From: a virus
Reading direction: 5' to 3' (one strand)
Length of the DNA: 35,799 nt
Virus record (IMG/VR): IMGVR_UViG_3300011116_000395
Coordinates: 1-35,799 of that record
In this document: positions 25,575 through 35,114 of the stretch, one piece after another
How positions within the stretch are numbered: position 1 is the first letter of the stretch
Layout: every line of letters begins with the position of its first letter
Notes under the pieces: generated by a model
Database searches by the model: none
What the model saw: only the letters and a program-made list of their open reading frames with translations
What the model was told of the DNA's origin: nothing
Position numbers and translations under genes: made by a program

Positions 25575-25745
25575 TTATTTAATATTGAGACCGACGCCCT
25601 TGAGGAAATTGATTACCTTTTCTAGGAAGGAATCATCAGCGGGGGTCGGGGTCAATTTAACAATGATGCGGGCGGCAAGCACGATGCCACCAACGGCGGC
25701 AACGATCTCGGTCCAATTTGCGGTAATCCAGTTCCAGATGTTCAT
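25575..25745 (-). CDS. Small membrane protein, holin candidate (56 aa)
   Basis: Opens at ATG 25745, with AGGAGG five bases upstream, one of the best ribosome sites in the window. The sequence has an N-terminal amphipathic stretch (NIWNWITANWTEIV), one membrane segment (VAAVGGIVLAARIIV), a TPTPADDSF linker and a short helical tail (LEKVINFLKGVGLNIK). This NWxEI-TM-LTPTPxDD layout is common in small phage membrane proteins of unclear role that sit with lysis genes. Being beside the spanin-like pair makes a holin the best guess. Confidence 0.65.
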   Translation of the reverse strand: MNIWNWITANWTEIVAAVGGIVLAARIIVKLTPTPADDSFLEKVINFLKGVGLNIK

Positions 25746-28232: not shown

Positions 28233-28264
28233 AAACCAAAAGAAAGGAAACACATACAATGAAA
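28233..28264 (+). repeat. 32-bp perfect direct repeat, copy 1 (leader and ribosome site)
   Basis: This segment begins AAACCAAAAGAAAGGAAAC and runs through the ATG and the next codon of the gene at 28259. An identical copy lies exactly 370 bases downstream at 28603-28634, over the start of the gene at 28629. It contains AAAGGAAA, a ribosome site. The duplication of a leader but not of the protein suggests gene recruitment by recombination or shared post-transcriptional control. Confidence 0.85.
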
Positions 28265-28543
28265 ACAATAAGGAAAACAATTAAAAAATTTATAGAGCCA
28301 TCAGTTGACGGACTAGGCAGAGAGATTACTGCAATTTGCTATGGAAAGGTATGGCACGAAACTGATTTATACGGAAATATCCACATAGAAGATGCTGGAG
28401 AGGATTACGATCCCCCCTATGAGAGATATATGCTCACGATAGGCAATCAAGGGTATGTGAGCGGAAATCTTGAGAAGCTTGAAAAGATATTGTTTGAATG
28501 GGCAAAAGATGAGGAGGTATTTACGGAGGAAGATTACGAATAA
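28259..28543 (+). CDS. Hypothetical small protein with a duplicated leader (94 aa)
   Basis: Starts at ATG 28259 with AAAGGAAA upstream in the 32-bp repeat. A basic N-terminus (KTIRKTIKKFIEPS) is followed by beta-strands (REITAICYGKVWHETDLYGN, ERYMLTIGNQGYVSGNL) and a strongly acidic C-terminus (FEWAKDEEVFTEEDYE). The gene is followed by two hairpins that may end transcription. No family recognised. Confidence 0.65.
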   Translation: MKTIRKTIKKFIEPSVDGLGREITAICYGKVWHETDLYGNIHIEDAGEDYDPPYERYMLTIGNQGYVSGNLEKLEKILFEWAKDEEVFTEEDYE

Positions 28544-28548
28544 AGTCG

Positions 28549-28586
28549 AAACCCCTTTGGGGGTCTTTGCGGTTGGCTACCGCAAA
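28549..28586 (+). terminator. Two hairpins between small rightward genes
   Basis: The first hairpin pairs ACCCC (28551-28555) with GGGGT and is followed by CTTT, like a short intrinsic terminator. The second pairs TTTGCGGT (28566-28573) perfectly with ACCGCAAA (28579-28586) around the loop TGGCT. The stem contains the TTGCGGT sequence found repeatedly near the primase gene. It could limit read-through or be an attenuator or processing site between the genes at 28259 and 28629. Confidence 0.55.
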
Positions 28587-28602
28587 CTGATGAGACAGCC
28601 AA

Positions 28603-28634
28603 AAACCAAAAGAAAGGAAACACATACAATGAAA
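28603..28634 (+). repeat. 32-bp perfect direct repeat, copy 2
   Basis: Identical to 28233-28264, over the leader and first codons of the gene at 28629. The two genes' proteins are not alike beyond the first two residues (Met-Lys), so the identity is in the DNA or RNA rather than inherited through protein similarity. Confidence 0.85.
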
Positions 28635-29015
28635 CGCACAATCGAAATAGACGACACGCTTGAAAGCCGAGTCCAATCGGCCATCAATGATGTGAAGGCA
28701 GAGTTGGAGAACTATTTGAACAATAATCCAGACACGGATTCGCTTCCGTGTATCGGTAATGATCTGGATTATGATGGAGCCATCCACTCGATAGTTGATT
28801 CGAGCGTTCCAGTTTACACGCACGAAATCAAGACGGTTTGGTATCTGCACGGATCGGAACTTGAGCAAGCATACGAAAACGCGGGAGTGGGCGAAAATCC
28901 GATGGAGAATTATGGCATGGCTGCCATTTATTTTTACATTATGGAAAAGGTGCAGGAGTGGTATCACAACGAGGCAGAGGAAATCTTTGAGAATTGGAAG
29001 GAAAGCCAATCGTGA
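28629..29015 (+). CDS. Acidic hypothetical protein (128 aa)
   Basis: Opens at ATG 28629 in the second 32-bp leader copy; a longer frame upstream to 28470 is a shadow of the preceding gene. The sequence MKRTIEIDDTLESRVQSAIN is followed by an acidic helix and YDGAIHSIVDSSVPVYTHEI, then the Glu-rich VQEWYHNEAEEIFENWKESQ. Overall negative charge and small size resemble early phage inhibitors or DNA mimics, but no family is recognised. Its stop overlaps the next start (GTGA). Confidence 0.68.
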   Translation: MKRTIEIDDTLESRVQSAINDVKAELENYLNNNPDTDSLPCIGNDLDYDGAIHSIVDSSVPVYTHEIKTVWYLHGSELEQAYENAGVGENPMENYGMAAIYFYIMEKVQEWYHNEAEEIFENWKESQS

Positions 29016-29143
29016 TTTGCTTCTCCATCTACACCCGAGCCGGTTCCTTCGCCTGCCGTTTCGAAAGCCTAGAGGCTGCGGAACGCTGGCGGGGGATGAA
29101 TGGGCGGACGATCTACACAATCAGAAAGGAGGCGTGGCGATGA
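29012..29143 (+). CDS. Tiny protein with coupled start (43 aa)
   Basis: GTG 29012 overlaps the preceding TGA (GTGA). The sequence ICFSIYTRAGSFACRFESLE, then AAERWRGMNGRTIYTIRKEA and WR, has strand, strand, helix, strand order like a small alpha/beta domain. Its 3' end carries AAAGGAGG, which serves the next gene. Coupling at both ends supports it. No family recognised. Confidence 0.58.
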   Translation: MICFSIYTRAGSFACRFESLEAAERWRGMNGRTIYTIRKEAWR

Positions 29144-29223
29144 ATGGAGCGGTCTATTTCGCACACGGCCTGATTTTAGGCGGAATCCTGGTCGGCTTCG
29201 CTTGGATCGTATTAAGGAAATAA
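29140..29223 (+). CDS. Tiny single-pass membrane protein (27 aa)
   Basis: ATG 29140 overlaps the preceding stop (ATGA), with AAAGGAGG about 11 bases before it. The peptide NGAVYFAHGLILGGILVGFA continues with WIVLRK: one Gly-rich membrane helix with a basic end. It is the second one-helix membrane peptide in this region. Confidence 0.55.
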   Translation: MNGAVYFAHGLILGGILVGFAWIVLRK

Positions 29224-29232
29224 GGAGGAAAT

Positions 29233-29439
29233 ATGGAAACATACATAACAAGAAAAGATGAAGGGGTAGGCGTTGGATCATTTGATTCGATTGCCTGGGC
29301 CTTTGAAAAATACGGAATAGAAGATGATAAAAATATAAATTATGGGGTTATCCATGGAAATGAGGATTCCCCCATAATGATCTGTCTTTGGGAGAAAGAG
29401 CCATCCTATATGCAAAAGCCGGATCTTATCTTGGAATAG
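29233..29439 (+). CDS. Small hypothetical protein (68 aa)
   Basis: Starts METYITRKDEGVGVGSFDSI, with AAGGAGGAAAT directly upstream, an excellent ribosome site. It has alpha/beta order and an acidic middle (YGIEDDKNINYGVIHGNEDS), then IMICLWEKEPSYMQKPDL. No family recognised. It is followed by a hairpin at 29457-29481. Confidence 0.66.
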   Translation: METYITRKDEGVGVGSFDSIAWAFEKYGIEDDKNINYGVIHGNEDSPIMICLWEKEPSYMQKPDLILE

Positions 29440-29456
29440 CTAAACGCTTTCCCTCG

Positions 29457-29481
29457 TCCCCTTTCGTCACGGAAGGGGGGA
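29457..29481 (+). terminator. Hairpin between small genes
   Basis: TCCCCTTTCG (29457-29466) pairs with CGGAAGGGGGG around a three-base loop. There is no following T-run, so it is not a classical intrinsic terminator; it could protect or process the mRNA. Confidence 0.45.
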
Positions 29482-29530
29482 GAGGTTGAGCCGATAGGTG
29501 AGACCTAAAAACAAATAAAGAAAGGGAACC

Positions 29531-29707
29531 ATGACAAAAGAAAGAGAATTACAGTGGAAGGTGGATTACTTGAAAGAAAGCCTAAAACAAATAAAAGGCA
29601 CGATCTGGGCTTCAAAAATGGGGCATCTTCAAAAAGATTGGGTTGAAGATAAAATGTTGGATTCATTTTGTAATTTAATTGATAATGCATTGTATAATTC
29701 TGAATAA
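29531..29707 (+). CDS. Small AT-rich hypothetical protein (58 aa)
   Basis: Starts MTKERELQWKVDYLKESLKQ with AAAGGGAACC upstream in a leader (AAAAACAAATAAAGAAAGGG) loosely like the 32-bp repeat. The protein is a charged helix, then KMGHLQKDWVEDKMLDSFCN. It is richer in A and T than neighbouring genes. No family recognised. Confidence 0.6.
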   Translation: MTKERELQWKVDYLKESLKQIKGTIWASKMGHLQKDWVEDKMLDSFCNLIDNALYNSE

Positions 29708-29720
29708 ATAATTATTCATA

Positions 29721-29747
29721 CCGCCCCAAGTTCCACCCTTGGGCGGG
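29721..29747 (+). terminator. GC-rich hairpin after the gene at 29531
   Basis: CCGCCC-C-AAG (29721-29730) pairs with CTTGGGCGG (29738-29746) with a one-base bulge and eight-base loop. It follows the gene's stop by 13 bases, so it may terminate or stabilise the transcript; no long T-run follows. Confidence 0.5.
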
Positions 29748-29763
29748 ACCAAATAGCATCGCA

Positions 29764-29866
29764 CCTGGCAGCCGCCTAATAAACGGCAGCCTGGAGCATA
29801 AATCGGGAGCGTCCTGGTATCCGCTAATAAACGGAGGCTTGGCGCACCTATAAGGAGTCTATAAAA
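29764..29866 (+). repeat. Tandem imperfect repeat of about 49 bases with TAATAAA-loop hairpins
   Basis: Unit 1 starts at 29764 and unit 2 at 29813. Both begin CCTGG and contain TAATAAACGG (29777-29786 and 29825-29834). Each forms a small hairpin with the loop TAATAAA: GCCG/CGGC in unit 1 and TCCG/CGGA in unit 2, a compensating change at the stem base. Unit 2 ends with AAGGAGT, the ribosome site of the gene at 29867, while unit 1 has CGGGAGCG in the equivalent place. Confidence 0.7.
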
Positions 29867-30031
29867 ATGACAAAGGAACAGATCGTTAAGGAATACCTAG
29901 CCGGTATCGGCAGGAAAGGCGGGAGCGTTAAGGGTCCGAGTAAGGCTCGGAAACTATCGCGGGAGCATTATCAAATGGTAGCGCAGAGGCAGCGGGAGCG
30001 TTGGGATTCCTGGCGCAAAGAGCGGGAGCGT
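29804..30031 (+). repeat. Recurring CGGGAGCGT 9-mer
   Basis: Four exact copies lie at 29804-29812, 29920-29928, 29993-30001 and 30023-30031, plus CGGGAGCAT at 29960-29968. The first is outside any gene; the others are in the gene at 29867 but in two reading frames (Gly-Ser-Val and Arg-Glu-Arg), so protein repetition alone does not explain them. Spacing is 116, 40, 33 and 30 bases. Confidence 0.6.
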
Positions 30032-30061
30032 CAGGATAAACGGTACTTCAGCGTCCGATAG
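29867..30061 (+). CDS. Small basic protein of the GGKxRA...ARW type (64 aa)
   Basis: AAGGAGT lies upstream of ATG 29867. The core IGRKGGSVKGPSKARKLSRE, then HYQMVAQRQRERW, follows a widespread small phage and plasmid pattern (a GG-K-x-R-A motif, a Ser/Thr-Pro/Arg-Glu turn, then a basic helix ending in RW) whose role is unclear. The strongly basic C-terminus (RKERERQDKRYFSVR) suggests nucleic-acid binding. It is the last rightward gene, and a large imperfect hairpin follows. Confidence 0.66.
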   Translation: MTKEQIVKEYLAGIGRKGGSVKGPSKARKLSREHYQMVAQRQRERWDSWRKERERQDKRYFSVR

Positions 30062-30448: not shown

Positions 30449-30698
30449 TTAAGACGCTGGCAAGCAGTTTAATCTTTTCCTGGTGGACTTCAAGGAAGTT
30501 TGCCAGATCCTCCAGGTCTCTGGTCAGGTCATTCATATTGGCCTCGTACACCTCGCGGGAGCAGTCAGCCAGGATGTCACCGCACAGCCGGTCAACCTTG
30601 CCTATTGTCTGGTGGAGCCTTGAGTTCTCGGTAAGGAGAAGTTCAATGTAGGCCCAAGCCAGCCCTACCCTATCCCTTCCTGCCTTCACTAAAGCCAC
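30435..30698 (-). CDS. Small helical hypothetical protein (87 aa)
   Basis: Reads MALVKAGRDRVGLAWAYIEL, LLTENSRLHQTIGKVDRLCG and then an acidic helix (LTRDLEDLANFLEVHQEKIK). It overlaps the genes on both sides by short stretches. Probably an all-helical oligomeric protein. No family recognised; existence is supported by its tight fit between two conserved small genes. Confidence 0.6.
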   Translation of the reverse strand: MALVKAGRDRVGLAWAYIELLLTENSRLHQTIGKVDRLCGDILADCSREVYEANMNDLTRDLEDLANFLEVHQEKIKLLASVLNEPA

Positions 30699-30816
30699 CC
30701 TTCTTGGCCTTCATCAGCCGCCAGGTTCTGGGGCTAATGGTGGATTGGCTCTTGGGTCGGCTGGTCCCGGCCTTGCGTCGGGCGTTGATATTGGCATAGA
30801 GTCCTGGGCGTTTCAT
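30670..30816 (-). CDS. Conserved MK(R/K)PGLYANI small basic protein (48 aa)
   Basis: Starts at ATG 30816. The sequence MKRPGLYANINARRKAGTSR, then PKSQSTISPRTWRLMKAKKG, closely follows a small basic phage protein often seen in marine and aquatic phages (KPGLYANIHAKR...). A longer frame to 30921 runs into the non-coding control region and is not supported. The -10-like TATACT at 30823-30828 would place the transcript start at the ATG. Function unknown; possibly DNA or RNA binding given its charge. Confidence 0.72.
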   Translation of the reverse strand: MKRPGLYANINARRKAGTSRPKSQSTISPRTWRLMKAKKGGFSEGRKG

Positions 30817-30822
30817 TCCCCT

Positions 30823-30850
30823 AGTATAGCACGACCTTTCCAACCCCCAA
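30823..30850 (-). promoter_or_regulatory. Putative promoter for the leftward genes at 30816
   Basis: Read on the minus strand, TTGGGG (weak -35) and TATACT (30823-30828, 5 of 6 consensus bases) are about 16 bases apart. The predicted start is at about 30816, the A of the ATG, so the mRNA would be leaderless. It borders the inverted-repeat region. Confidence 0.45.
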
Positions 30851-30873
30851 CCCCACGATTTCAATTCCAAAAC

Positions 30874-31062
30874 ACTTACGCAAGATTTCTCGATCAAGTT
30901 TTCACCCCACCACCGCAACAAATAATTTCAACCGCCGCAGCAATACCGCAGAAATACCCCTATAAGGGGTATTTCTTGCGGTAGTTGCGGTATGCGGGCA
31001 AAAGCTCATTTCTGCGGTACCGCAACTTGAATTGTTGCGGTAGTCCCAAATCTTGCGTAAGT
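30874..31062. repeat. Nested inverted repeats and TTGCGGTA sites; candidate replication origin or control region
   Basis: A perfect 15-bp inverted repeat, ACTTACGCAAGATTT at 30874-30888 and its complement at 31048-31062, brackets the region. Inside is a hairpin with about 17-bp arms at 30944-30983 (TACCGCA/GAAATACCCC pairing with GGGGTATTTC/TTGCGGTA, one bulge), and the 12-bp palindrome TGCGGTACCGCA at 31013-31024. TTGCGGTA occurs exactly at 30976-30983, 30985-30992, 31018-31025 (minus) and 31035-31042, and again at 31152-31159 in the adjacent gene; CTGCGGTA occurs at 31012-31019 and 30944-30951 (minus). A third partial copy ACTTACGAAAG begins at 31091. It directly follows the primase-helicase gene. 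Confidence 0.7.
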
Positions 31063-31092
31063 CGCATTTCTGCAAAAACCATTATCAACGAC

Positions 31093-33024
31093 TTACGAAA
31101 GCTCGGTGATCTTCCAACCATCCCCATCCTTGGAGATCGTGCCATCAGATTTTGCGGTAGCAAACAACTCCTGTGCCTTCCGTTGGGAACACCCAACGCA
31201 AGCCACAATATGCTCCAGACAGGCGGTGTACCCACTCCCTTTCGGCCAATCGGGCAGGGCCGGTTCTATGGTCATTTCCTTGCGCCCCCTGCCCGTGTTC
31301 TCTGGCCCATTTGACTCCTCCCAGGCCATCCACTCCTCGGCATGGCGTAGCCATACATGGGTGGCGTACTTGCTGGCGTGTACATCGGTATCGCCCTGGG
31401 GCCAAGGGATAGCTGCCCGTGTTCCGCGCTTGGGGAACGACAGCTTAAAATGCCCTTCCTTGACCGCCTGAAGGTACACCACGGCCCTTGCCCAGTTGGT
31501 TAGCTCGCTTGACCCTAGCCCAGCGTAGGCGAGATCGTAGAGCGTTTGTGAGCCACCACCTTCCTTCGGCGGCTTTGGCGTGTGGTGCATTACCATCCAT
31601 GTCACCCCGGTGGCCACGCTGATTGGGTTCAGGCAGTGGCGCAGGAACATGGTCATGTTCTCCTGGGCAAGGGCATCCCCTCCCATAAAGGATAGGAGCG
31701 GATCAATCCAGCACAGGTCCGGGCGATGTAGGCCAATCAGGGCAGCCGTCATCTTTGCGAAGTCCGGCCCCGTTTTGGTCGTGTCCCTGATGATCGTGAC
31801 ATTGGCAAGCATCAATGCAGACTGCTCCTCGGTCAGGTTCAGCTTTCCCTTGAGGTGTCGAAGCACACCTTGGGCCATCTCCGCAACATCACCCAGATCG
31901 TTCTCGGCCTGTACCAACAGGCTTCGTAGCGGCTTCTTGGGCGTGATCCCAAGGAACGGTAGGCCGATGGCCCAGGTCATCATGGCTTGCAGGCAGAGCG
32001 TGGACTTTCCCAACCCCGATCCTCCGATCCATACGCATGACCCGCCCTTGCACAACCAGCGATTGCCAAGCAAACAATCGCCATCCTCGTCCGCCTTGAA
32101 CCCCAGGATGTCCTGCCACGGCGTAGGTTGCGGCAGGTTCATCGCCTCCATGTGCGCCCGCCACTCGCTCCACCCTTGCCGCCCGATGTTCGTTGCGAGC
32201 AACGCCTGGTGGGCATTGGCGAGTTTCCTCGGCGCACCGGGGAGGCGCGACAACCTTGAGGCATCCTTGTTCTTGGGGTCGATGTCGAACTGCGCCATCT
32301 TGGAATAGAGGTAGGCCACCCGATCCTCATATTCCTTGGCATCTTTGGCATCCACCTTGACCCAGGCATGGACCGAGCGGGAGCCGGAGTGGATGACCAC
32401 CGAGCAGGGCAGCTCAAGTGCGCGGATGACATTCCACTGCTCATCCATCGTGCCGCTGTCGAACTCGATCAGCGCATGACGGAAGGCTTGGACATCATCG
32501 GACTTGCGCGACTCGCCAACGGGATTGATGCAGACATAAGCCCCGACATAGCTTTCGGGCAACTCGACCCCGGCATGGAACTGCTTGAGCCAATCCTCGC
32601 GGGTCTTGATGGTTCCCTTTCCTGACGGCCTCTCGCTGTCGTCCTGGTGGATTGCGCCCACGATGCATACCCGGTCGCCCTCATTGAAGGCGGTGAGCAA
32701 AAACTTCCTGACATCATCGGCGTGGTGGCTTGGCTTTGGGCATGGCTCAAGCTCGATCCGCACAGGTTCTTGGATCTTGAATGGGTTGAGCGATTCCCCG
32801 ATGGGCTGGCGGGCAGCCTTGCGATAGGCTGACTTGATCGCCGCCTCGATCTCGCGGTCCTTCAGCCCGCTCGATGTAGCCCCCGGCCACAGGCGATCCA
32901 AGGCATCCGACTCCGCAATGCCCGCGTCCCTGAGTTGCTGTGCGGCCAGAAACAACTCCTGGTTACGCTCGCCCTCCTTGGCTCCGTTGCTGATGAAGTT
33001 CTCGGTTCGTTTGGGTAGTCTCAC
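31093..33024 (-). CDS. Primase-helicase fusion (AEP-type primase plus RepA/AAA helicase)
   Basis: 643 residues from GTG 33024, which overlaps the upstream TGA (GTGA) with AAGGAAGG just before it; a longer frame to 33075 lies in the upstream gene. An N-terminal polymerase-type primase domain shows FRHALIEFDSG with candidate metal residues Glu187 and Asp189, SGSRSVHAWVKV near 213-224 and SRLSRLPGAPRK near 256-267. A RecA-like helicase follows: Walker A GGSGLGKST at 334-342, the VQAENDLGD segment, Walker B LCWIDPLLSFMGG (Asp441) and a C-terminal winged-helix-like tail. It would prime and unwind DNA at the phage origin. The inverted-repeat region at its 3' side may be its target. Confidence 0.82.
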   Translation of the reverse strand: MRLPKRTENFISNGAKEGERNQELFLAAQQLRDAGIAESDALDRLWPGATSSGLKDREIEAAIKSAYRKAARQPIGESLNPFKIQEPVRIELEPCPKPSHHADDVRKFLLTAFNEGDRVCIVGAIHQDDSERPSGKGTIKTREDWLKQFHAGVELPESYVGAYVCINPVGESRKSDDVQAFRHALIEFDSGTMDEQWNVIRALELPCSVVIHSGSRSVHAWVKVDAKDAKEYEDRVAYLYSKMAQFDIDPKNKDASRLSRLPGAPRKLANAHQALLATNIGRQGWSEWRAHMEAMNLPQPTPWQDILGFKADEDGDCLLGNRWLCKGGSCVWIGGSGLGKSTLCLQAMMTWAIGLPFLGITPKKPLRSLLVQAENDLGDVAEMAQGVLRHLKGKLNLTEEQSALMLANVTIIRDTTKTGPDFAKMTAALIGLHRPDLCWIDPLLSFMGGDALAQENMTMFLRHCLNPISVATGVTWMVMHHTPKPPKEGGGSQTLYDLAYAGLGSSELTNWARAVVYLQAVKEGHFKLSFPKRGTRAAIPWPQGDTDVHASKYATHVWLRHAEEWMAWEESNGPENTGRGRKEMTIEPALPDWPKGSGYTACLEHIVACVGCSQRKAQELFATAKSDGTISKDGDGWKITELS

Positions 33025-33587
33025 GCCTTCCTTTCCATGATTGCCTTCATGCATTTGATCGCCTGATCCACGCATGACTTGGCATCATCCATGACTTCTT
33101 TTGCTGCGAATCTCAAAACAGTCCAGCCATTTTCCGTGCAATCCCTATCTCTGGCCCGATCTCTTGTGAATGATTCTTTGCTGTTATGGTATGCGTAGCC
33201 GTCGATCTCAATGGCCAACTTGATTTCTGGATTTGCGAAATCAAACCTATACGATCTGCCATTGCACTCCACGCAATGCTGGATTATTAGATAATCTAAT
33301 GCTTCATCGTTCCATGCCTTATGGAACATCCGCTCGACTTCGCTTTCGTATGAGTGGGCAAAGGCGCAGGCAACAAGTTCAAGCGCATCGGTTCTGCTTA
33401 TTCTATTTGATGTGAGTGGACCACCCTTGGCCTTGAATATTCTTATGGCTCCATCTTGTCCGGCGTTCCACACGCGACAGTACATGGCAATGGCCGCGCA
33501 GGATGCGTAAAATTCGCTGGCGGGTGCGTCATCGCTAACCCCGCAAAGCCTTTTGATAATAGGACGGAAGTCTTGATCGAAACTCAT
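33021..33587 (-). CDS. DUF559/Vsr-like endonuclease domain protein (188 aa)
   Basis: The second half has the DUF559 restriction-endonuclease-like layout: YRFDFANPEIKLAIEIDGYA with Asp116, Glu127 and Asp129, HNSKESFTRDRARDRDCTEN, and GWTVLRFAAKEV at 154-165. The first about 80 residues are a separate helical domain (IIKRLCGVSDDAPASEFYAS) of unknown type. The family includes Vsr-like nicking enzymes and mobile or repair-linked nucleases. The gene begins shortly after the repeated stem-loops at 33612-33830 and is followed by the primase-helicase with a GTGA overlap. Confidence 0.75.
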   Translation of the reverse strand: MSFDQDFRPIIKRLCGVSDDAPASEFYASCAAIAMYCRVWNAGQDGAIRIFKAKGGPLTSNRISRTDALELVACAFAHSYESEVERMFHKAWNDEALDYLIIQHCVECNGRSYRFDFANPEIKLAIEIDGYAYHNSKESFTRDRARDRDCTENGWTVLRFAAKEVMDDAKSCVDQAIKCMKAIMERKA

Positions 33588-33834: not shown

Positions 33835-34005
33835 TTAGATATCCTTCCTCACCTCCCTGACGATAAAGGTGTAGGCAAGAATGAACAGTGCATCCCACCA
33901 ATCAATCTGGCTATACCCAGAGGCGCACAGGATAATCTTTAGCGTAAAGAACCACGGGCAGACTATGACCGCAATGTCTGCGGCCCTGTTCATGGCTTTG
34001 TTCAT
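33835..34005 (-). CDS. Small membrane protein (56 aa)
   Basis: ATG 34005 overlaps the TGA of the GT9-type gene (ATGA). The frame reads MNKAMNRAADIAVIVCPWFF, TLKIILCASGYSQIDWWDAL, FILAYTFIVREVRKDI: two membrane helices (about 9-27 and 33-48) with a charged end. Small two-helix proteins may be holin-like or bind host membrane enzymes. Its position after the glycosyltransferase suggests a joint surface role, but nothing direct supports this. Confidence 0.6.
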   Translation of the reverse strand: MNKAMNRAADIAVIVCPWFFTLKIILCASGYSQIDWWDALFILAYTFIVREVRKDI

Positions 34006-35114
34006 TTGCTCTTCTCCTCCAACTCCATCGCTTTCGCCGCCGCATCTACAATATCCTTGGCGGTGATGTTGCGTAGGGCATTGCACCAGTACTGGGTGCC
34101 TTTGGTCTTGTTGGTCGCATCCTTACACTTCTGTTGCGGCAAGCCCGCATGAGGGCGGCACGGAGCGTGCGGGCAGGTGTCAGGCTTGTAGACTGACACG
34201 TTCTTTGGGTAGAACTGAACTCGATCTTCTGGCGAATATGATCCCCACAAGCTGACGCAAGCCGTGTCCAAGCCCGCCGCCATGTGGTTGACACTGCTGT
34301 CGGGCGCCACGACAAAGTCCGCGTTGGCTATGATCGGGAACAGCGACCGCACCTGCTTGGTGCAGTTGAAGAGGTCGATGACCCTGGGGTGATTCACCTC
34401 GAAGTTGTTGGAGTTGTCCAGCCCGATGATAACCGCGTGATGTTTGGGGTACGCTTCAAGCAATGCCAGCACCGCCTCCTGCCCCATCTTGGGCGGGTAG
34501 GTGCGGGTCGGACCAGAGCTGCTTACATGGTAAGCAAAGAAAGGCGTTGGTAGCGGCCACTTGCCAAGTTCCTTTAGCTCGTTGTGATCTGGGTCGATTA
34601 GGTACAGCTTTGGCCTACAATACTTGGCCATCTTCTCCTCATCCCATGCGTTCATCCATTCGTAGATGCGCTTGTAGGCGTTGCCTGCGCCTGTCCCAAG
34701 CTTGGTGTTGCCAACCTGGCCGGAGAACAAATCATCCAGTGGAACATGGGCATCGTATGATTCCCAAGCTTCCAGCGTTGGCGGTAGTGGGAGCAGCCTT
34801 GCGCCTAGCCCAGCGTAGAGCGTCATGTTGCGGGCTGGAGTGTAAACATCCACTACCCCTCCAGATTCCTGTACCAGGTAGTTGACGATTGCGGTTGCGA
34901 TGACGCTATCACCGATAGCACCAGCCCTGTACACGGCGGTCGCTCCGCCCGTTGCCCGCCCCGGATAGTACGGCTTGATCTTGTGCGGCACCGGCACGGC
35001 ATCGTCCCAGAGTGGTCCAGTAAGTTCGTCTGGGATCATGTAGGTCGTCCTCGGCCACAGATTGTTATCGTCCACCTTGTGGACTGAGTTGGTTTGATTG
35101 GTCCAGGTTTTCAT
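34002..35114 (-). CDS. GT9-type (heptosyltransferase-like) glycosyltransferase
   Basis: 370 residues with GT-B fold signs: YRAGAIGDSVIATAIVNYLV near 62-81 (the Gly-Asp donor-loop motif of GT9), PTPFFAYHVSSSGPTRTYPP, HAVIIGLDNSNNFEVNHPRV, and the family signature NADFVVAPDSSVNHMAAGLD at 264-283 followed by CVSLWGSYSPEDRVQFY. The C-terminus has four cysteines (314, 319, 330, 344), perhaps a zinc site. GT9 enzymes transfer heptose or other sugars to lipopolysaccharide cores, but phage versions are also known to act on DNA or virion proteins. It is preceded by a cytosine methyltransferase with an ATGA overlap. Confidence 0.82.
   Translation of the reverse strand: MKTWTNQTNSVHKVDDNNLWPRTTYMIPDELTGPLWDDAVPVPHKIKPYYPGRATGGATAVYRAGAIGDSVIATAIVNYLVQESGGVVDVYTPARNMTLYAGLGARLLPLPPTLEAWESYDAHVPLDDLFSGQVGNTKLGTGAGNAYKRIYEWMNAWDEEKMAKYCRPKLYLIDPDHNELKELGKWPLPTPFFAYHVSSSGPTRTYPPKMGQEAVLALLEAYPKHHAVIIGLDNSNNFEVNHPRVIDLFNCTKQVRSLFPIIANADFVVAPDSSVNHMAAGLDTACVSLWGSYSPEDRVQFYPKNVSVYKPDTCPHAPCRPHAGLPQQKCKDATNKTKGTQYWCNALRNITAKDIVDAAAKAMELEEKSK

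Follow-up and report, generated by a model that had tools for sequence, protein, structure and literature searches.

A putative replication origin beside a phage primase-helicase gene and its apparent co-exchange with the enzyme's C-terminal winged helix

The primase-helicase gene and the array beside it

The window, meaning the whole stretch of DNA analysed here, is a linear virus record in IMG/VR, 35.8 kb long; it carries terminase, SU10-type portal and capsid genes, and its 25-35.8 kb part has no nucleotide match among the cultured phages of INPHARED. It encodes a primase-helicase of 660 amino acids. What kind of enzyme is this? The N-terminal half is of the AEP/BT4734-like primase type and matches the phage DNA primases of phrog_2597, an assignment based on that family together with a sub-threshold match to BT4734. 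The helicase is a RecA-fold AAA_25 domain (Pfam, residues 337-502); besides it and the weak BT4734-like match, Pfam gave no TOPRIM or SF3 model in the protein. A sequence search of solved structures with the enzyme body returned nothing significant, and homology to the solved RSF1010 RepA went undetected. The AlphaFold2 model of the whole protein is poor (pLDDT 40), and that of the C-terminal 75 residues (pLDDT 77) is a winged helix with a helix-helix-beta-hairpin arrangement (in the numbering of these 75 residues, helices 31-42 and 46-59, strands 62-65 and 68-71). Foldseek matched this tail model to the winged helices of MarR, Rrf2, MotA and SelB, with a best E of 0.04 and none below 0.001; these matches include DNA binders as well as the RNA-binding domain of SelB.

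The start of the primase-helicase gene is overlapped by a minus-strand gene (33021-33587) with a C-terminal endonuclease-type domain (MTES_1575/DUF559), and glycosyltransferase-like genes of families 9 and 8 lie at 34002-35114 and 561-1370, both also on the minus strand. According to the layout of open reading frames, the sole plus-strand gene block of the window is found at 28259-30061; its genes mostly lack family matches and its base skew is opposite to that of the surroundings. Within this block, directly after a small ORF (28259-28543), there is a type II hammerhead ribozyme (Table 1), which was not found in the 12 related records searched, mostly fragments.

Downstream of the primase-helicase stop codon (31093) there are about 220 bp of non-coding DNA that hold the array. 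The elements named in the original prediction are all where it placed them, including the perfect 15-bp inverted repeat, the hairpin, the 12-bp palindrome TGCGGTACCGCA, the copies of TTGCGGTA (30976, 30985, 31018 on the minus strand, 31035 and 31152, spanning 184 bases) and of CTGCGGTA (31012, and 30944 on the minus strand), and the recurrence of ACTTACG at 31091. Read in gene sense, a forward box, a reverse box and three further forward boxes lead up to the hairpin and two reverse boxes follow it, with ACTTACGCAAG variants on the outside. The boxes (TACCGCAA and its variants) face inwards from both sides of the central hairpin.

Table 1. Features of the array, the adjoining gene and other elements of the window; box sequences are in gene sense and distances are from the hairpin centre
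Feature	Position	Strand	Remarks
Primase-helicase gene	31093..33075	-	660 aa; primase-type N-half, RecA-fold helicase, C-terminal winged helix
C-terminal winged-helix domain, residues 601-660	31096..31275	-	Predicted; counterpart swapped with array in sister clade
Putative replication origin, box array and central hairpin	30870..31092	-	Directly 3' of primase-helicase stop
Perfect 15-bp inverted repeat	30874-30888/31048-31062
Outer variant box ACTTACGCAAG	31052..31062	-
Box TACCGCAA	31035..31042	-	Centre -75
Reverse box TTGCGGTA	31018..31025	+	Centre -59; abuts next box, forming the palindrome at 31013-31024
Box TACCGCAG	31012..31019	-	Centre -52
Box TACCGCAA	30985..30992	-	Centre -25
Box TACCGCAA	30976..30983	-	Centre -16; abuts hairpin
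Central hairpin AGAAATACCCCT-TAT-AGGGGTATTTCT	30950..30976	.	12-bp arms, 3-nt loop
Reverse box CTGCGGTA	30944..30951	+	Centre +15
Reverse box TTGCGGTG	30911..30918	+	Centre +48
Outer reverse variant box CTTGCGTAAGT	30874..30884	+
-10-like TATACT	30823..30828	-	Read from sequence; 6 bases before ATG (30816) of small gene
Small basic protein gene (MKRPGLYANINARRKAG...)	30670-30816	-	Conserved in type-A relatives
Type II hammerhead ribozyme	28544-28604	+	Rfam RF02276, 45.1 bits (cut-off 37)

This density is far from what chance would give. The excess of TTGCGGTA that had been expected over shuffled sequence is borne out, as the window has seven copies against 0.80 expected and none of 100 shuffles reaches seven. 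No other 7-mer of the window clusters as densely as TACCGCA, which reaches six copies in 200 nt, the best cluster of any 7-mer in 60 dinucleotide shuffles being four copies. Repeat pairs in the 230 nt past the stop number 65, against 3.4 +/- 2.5 in shuffles, none of which (0/500) is as high. The GC content of the array is 40-52%, and no pronounced AT-rich stretch is found in or beside it, only the AT loop of the central palindrome. There is no match to the DnaA box (TTWTNCACA) in the window; such boxes occur in many, not all, iteron-type origins and are dispensable where the replicon supplies its own helicase. A turning point of GC skew had also been anticipated here. The skew does peak locally at about 30.5 kb, though not globally, and this says little, since the only plus-strand gene block ends at the same point.

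At the downstream edge of the non-coding stretch lies the TATACT hexamer, which a consensus scan missed and which is conserved in the type-A relatives described below. Its position just 6 bases ahead of the ATG suggests that the transcript of the small gene may be leaderless.

Conservation of the array and coupling of tail type to box type

Type-A relatives comprise 40 loci whose primases are 74-98% identical to that of the window, nearly all of these and the other loci being metagenomic contigs, mostly fragments. The array stands 3' of the gene in every type-A relative whose contig runs past the stop, in line with the expectation that it would be found beside homologous primase-helicase genes, and where checked there is one cluster per genome, always adjoining the primase-helicase. 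Which parts of the array are kept? The boxes and the central AAATACCCC-TTATA-GGGGTATTT palindrome are almost invariant, and the central hairpin keeps 98% of its pairs (28 type-A sequences). The outer 15-bp and the second 13-bp inverted repeats keep 86% and 76% of theirs; the 15-bp repeat encloses the hairpin as described but is not maintained as a helix in relatives, and neither is the second. One subgroup (L014) has lost half of the 12-bp palindrome and retained the other box. All five clustered copies of TTGCGGTA exist, but the one at 31152 lies within coding sequence and is missing even from a 98%-identical relative (L021). With boxes and central hairpin kept, outer repeats not, and half a palindrome dispensed with in one subgroup, the array appears to behave as individual binding sites around a hairpin and not as one large folded molecule. 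A single long hairpin or RNA element was considered and rejected, as the consensus fold brings no gain in covariation and the long-range helices are not kept.

A sister clade, with primase-helicases 44-47% identical to that of the window, is more instructive about the tail. Between these phages the enzyme bodies are 68-99% identical and the last ~85 residues can be sorted into distinct types, each with its own kind of box: AGTGCAGTA for type B, CCCTCAAG for C, CCCCCAAG for C', CCCTATCA for D, CCTTCAAG shared by E and E2, and CAGACAAAT for G, next to TACCGCAA for type A, that of the window. With type A included there are eight tail clusters and seven box families, and the tail type predicts the box in 154 of 154 loci, a count for which the box letters were chosen after inspection. 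For this reason the arrays were clustered without labels too, and 6-mer clustering recovered the tail types with an adjusted Rand index of 0.95-0.99 at five to eight clusters (body against tail gives about 0.70-0.75). The partial correlation between array and tail given the body is 0.83, that between array and body given the tail 0.19; none of 999 permutations attains the former. Between pairs with bodies within 5% of each other the mean array distance is 0.28 for the same type and 0.95 for different types, with no overlap. Tails C and C' are related, and a single base separates their boxes (CCCTCAA/CCCCCAA).

The letters of the boxes change from type to type; their layout changes much less. 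Boxes of types B, C, E and G stand at about -61, -49, -39 and -15 on one side and +14 and +45 on the other side of the hairpin centre, in the same orientations; each type misses at most a few positions, and agreement is within 2 bp. E matches B at six of six positions within 2 bp (as in 9 of 20000 random layouts) and C matches E at five of six (21 of 20000). Type A follows this plan in that its boxes point inwards, two of them stand head to head on the left, and others abut the hairpin; its exact spacing agrees with the other types at two of seven positions, which is not above chance. The type-B hairpin has 22 cells with changes on both sides, where shuffles give 6.1; four pairs are affected, with no one-sided change and no G-U intermediates.

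Exchange of tail and array is best seen in pairs with nearly identical bodies. The last ~85 codons and the ~160-bp array are replaced together while bodies are up to 98.8% identical, and pairs with 94-99% identical bodies diverge from about -300/-250 to +165/+170 around the stop codon. In three of them (L225/L247, with bodies 98.6% identical, L228/L246 and L175/L221) the DNA is mostly 80-98% identical before the divergent part, falls to about 28-60% through tail and array, and recovers past the array to about 90-98%, with values mostly within 85-100%. L102/L133 follows the same pattern, the recovery extending over several hundred bases. Two further pairs, L269/L272 and L065/L066, remain divergent downstream with no clear return of identity. 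By parsimony the tail type changed at least 13 times on the body tree, 12 of these changes falling within the sister clade; this is more than the 7 needed if each type had arisen once. Assembly chimeras are an unlikely source of the exchange, as the exchanged loci come from different metagenomes. In the sister clade the tail and the adjoining array have thus been exchanged as one cassette, many times. No type-A tail was found on another body, all of them sitting on type-A bodies; type A itself shows no swap, so that the cassette argument is carried over to it from the sister clade.

Behind its arrays the sister clade has a gene (MIDQ/MMDQ..., HTH-like in L065) that exists in several divergent versions independent of tail type, as seen in L102, L133, L147, L153 and L225. 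Since it varies without following the tail, the region downstream of these arrays may be a wider exchange hotspot.

Does the arrangement extend beyond these phages? Five cultured phages with primases about 30% identical have repeat-rich stretches right after the gene (repeat pairs: Faecalibacterium phage FP_Lugh 42, Javan74 48, EFC-1 31, Castelnaud 16, Hayley 23, numbers equalled by no more than 1 of 500 shuffles), and an array 3' of the primase may therefore be general to this primase family. A search of bacterial genomes gave one weak partial match and one 43%-identical relative, on a contig (L237) of a Planctomycetota MAG that is possibly a provirus. Here nine CTGCCAC boxes surround a hairpin, CACCCC-GTA-GGGGTG; this adds one more box type, from outside the viral contigs.

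Readings of the array

What is the function of the array? As in an iteron-type origin, several short repeats are clustered in non-coding DNA beside an initiator gene, and it is probable that the array is the replication origin of the phage and that the adjoining primase-helicase binds its boxes with the C-terminal winged helix. Strong, if indirect, support for binding of the initiator to the repeats comes from the joint exchange: since tail and box types are exchanged together, the tail is the part likely to recognize the boxes, presumably as duplex DNA. Copies of the primase-helicase would bind TACCGCAA-type boxes through their winged helices and assemble to either side of the central palindrome, with its GC stem and AT loop, each copy oriented towards it. 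The assembled enzyme would then open or extrude the palindrome, where the RecA-fold helicase would be loaded and DNA synthesis primed, so that replication would start at the array with the hairpin as its opening or priming site.

Could the array act as RNA instead, as a structured element within the 3' portion of the primase-helicase transcript that is bound by the protein's own winged helix and serves autoregulation or mRNA stability? Folding of either strand is much more favourable than that of shuffled sequence (z -8.1 and -11.1), the central hairpin covaries, and the fold matches include the SelB winged helix in complex with SECIS RNA. But any array of inverted boxes should fold stably, and here both strands do; the consensus fold gains nothing in covariation, long-range helices are lost, the L014 group keeps one box without the other half of the palindrome, and compensatory pairs come without G-U intermediates. 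Nor does the array match an Rfam family, Hammerhead_II (28544-28604) being the only one in the window. We regard an RNA element as improbable. An operator or terminator that controls the replication operon or the small downstream gene, without origin function, is hardly to be expected either: the partner of the array is the replicative enzyme itself, types B to E have a different next gene and yet an array of the same plan, and at the hairpin, which is not T-tailed, no terminator was reported. This holds even though the array is intergenic and, in type A, followed by TATACT near the ATG of the small gene; a bound initiator might repress as well. A dyad layout with a palindromic centre also resembles recombination or mobile-repeat sites (attachment, telomere-resolution or REP/MITE-like). 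Such a site is most improbable here, with a single cluster per genome where checked, in a fixed place by the primase-helicase and coupled to its tail, and with none of the neighbouring genes that were tested coding for a recombinase.

Of the original prediction, the iteron-type origin next to the primase-helicase is thus the better supported half; the prediction had offered a master regulatory site as the other possibility, and one protein acting at several control points. The hairpin at 28566-28586, taken for one such point, is stem II of the hammerhead ribozyme, an isolated copy of the 8-mer at 25718 is at chance level, and the copy at 31152 is the non-conserved one; regulation at multiple sites is unsupported.

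Known systems and meaning

How does this compare with known initiators and origins, among them phage P4, the stem-loop origin of pRN1 ORF904 and phage BIP-1? The helicase of P4 alpha belongs to SF3. P4 alpha unites primase, helicase and a C-terminal winged helix in one protein and binds short repeats at ori and crr (PMC4234260). The window protein has the same three parts in one chain, its winged helix being predicted; it differs in its AEP-type primase half (TOPRIM in P4 alpha) and its RecA-fold AAA_25 helicase, and its array abuts the 3' end of the gene around a hairpin, whereas the P4 repeats are laid out otherwise. In pRN1, ORF904 likewise combines an AEP primase, a helicase and a winged helix, and an essential element lies directly 3' of the gene, with a hairpin whose sequence varies while pairing is kept (PMC4234260). 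That system has an SF3 helicase and a single stem-loop of ~100 bp without iterons, in contrast to the boxes, short hairpin and RecA-fold helicase of the window; the window array is not a single long stem-loop of the pRN1 type, and its long-range pairing is not conserved. At RSF1010 oriV a helicase, a primase and a repeat-binding initiator act on iterons and hairpins (PMC4234260), as three separate proteins (RepA, RepB' and RepC) where the window has one chain. By its described architecture the window protein resembles PrimQH, with an AEP primase, in some members a RepA/DnaB-type helicase, and a winged helix at the C-terminus that is proposed to recognize the origin; the portion of the source consulted describes no matching origins (PMC5862659).

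The record of Streptococcus phage Sfi21 has a 302-bp non-coding origin with inverted short repeats at the 3' end of a primase-type gene. The window array has the same place at the 3' end of a primase gene; the proteins of Sfi21 differ, with a helicase part that we take to be SF3-type. Joint exchange itself has a precedent in the PLE satellites, where the DNA-binding domain of the initiator and the iteron origin were exchanged together at least two times and only cognate pairs work (PMC8263062). There the exchange concerns an N-terminal RepA_N domain and a separate non-coding region of satellites, here a C-terminal winged helix and the adjoining array of phages, with at least 13 type changes. 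A limited search of the open-access literature found no report of a tail and an adjoining origin swapped as one cassette in such phages.

Why would an origin be exchanged so often? Tentatively, and with some doubt on our side, the whole family may repeatedly exchange the origin-binding domain with its matching origin while keeping the enzyme, driven by diversifying selection; origin-directed nucleases, satellites that copy the origin and incompatibility of co-infecting phages are candidate drivers in such a scenario, and share its doubt. A system of this kind would offer a natural library of at least seven pairs of winged helix and DNA site.

If the origin reading is true, it predicts the replication start site in a large group of uncultivated phages. 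These loci would also provide natural domain swaps that tie a protein domain of ~80 residues to its DNA box without laboratory work, and the matched tail and box pairs would be material for learning by what rules small winged helices select their target sequences. From the recurrence of the exchange, selection seems to act on the identity of phage origins, as has been shown for PLE satellites (PMC8263062).
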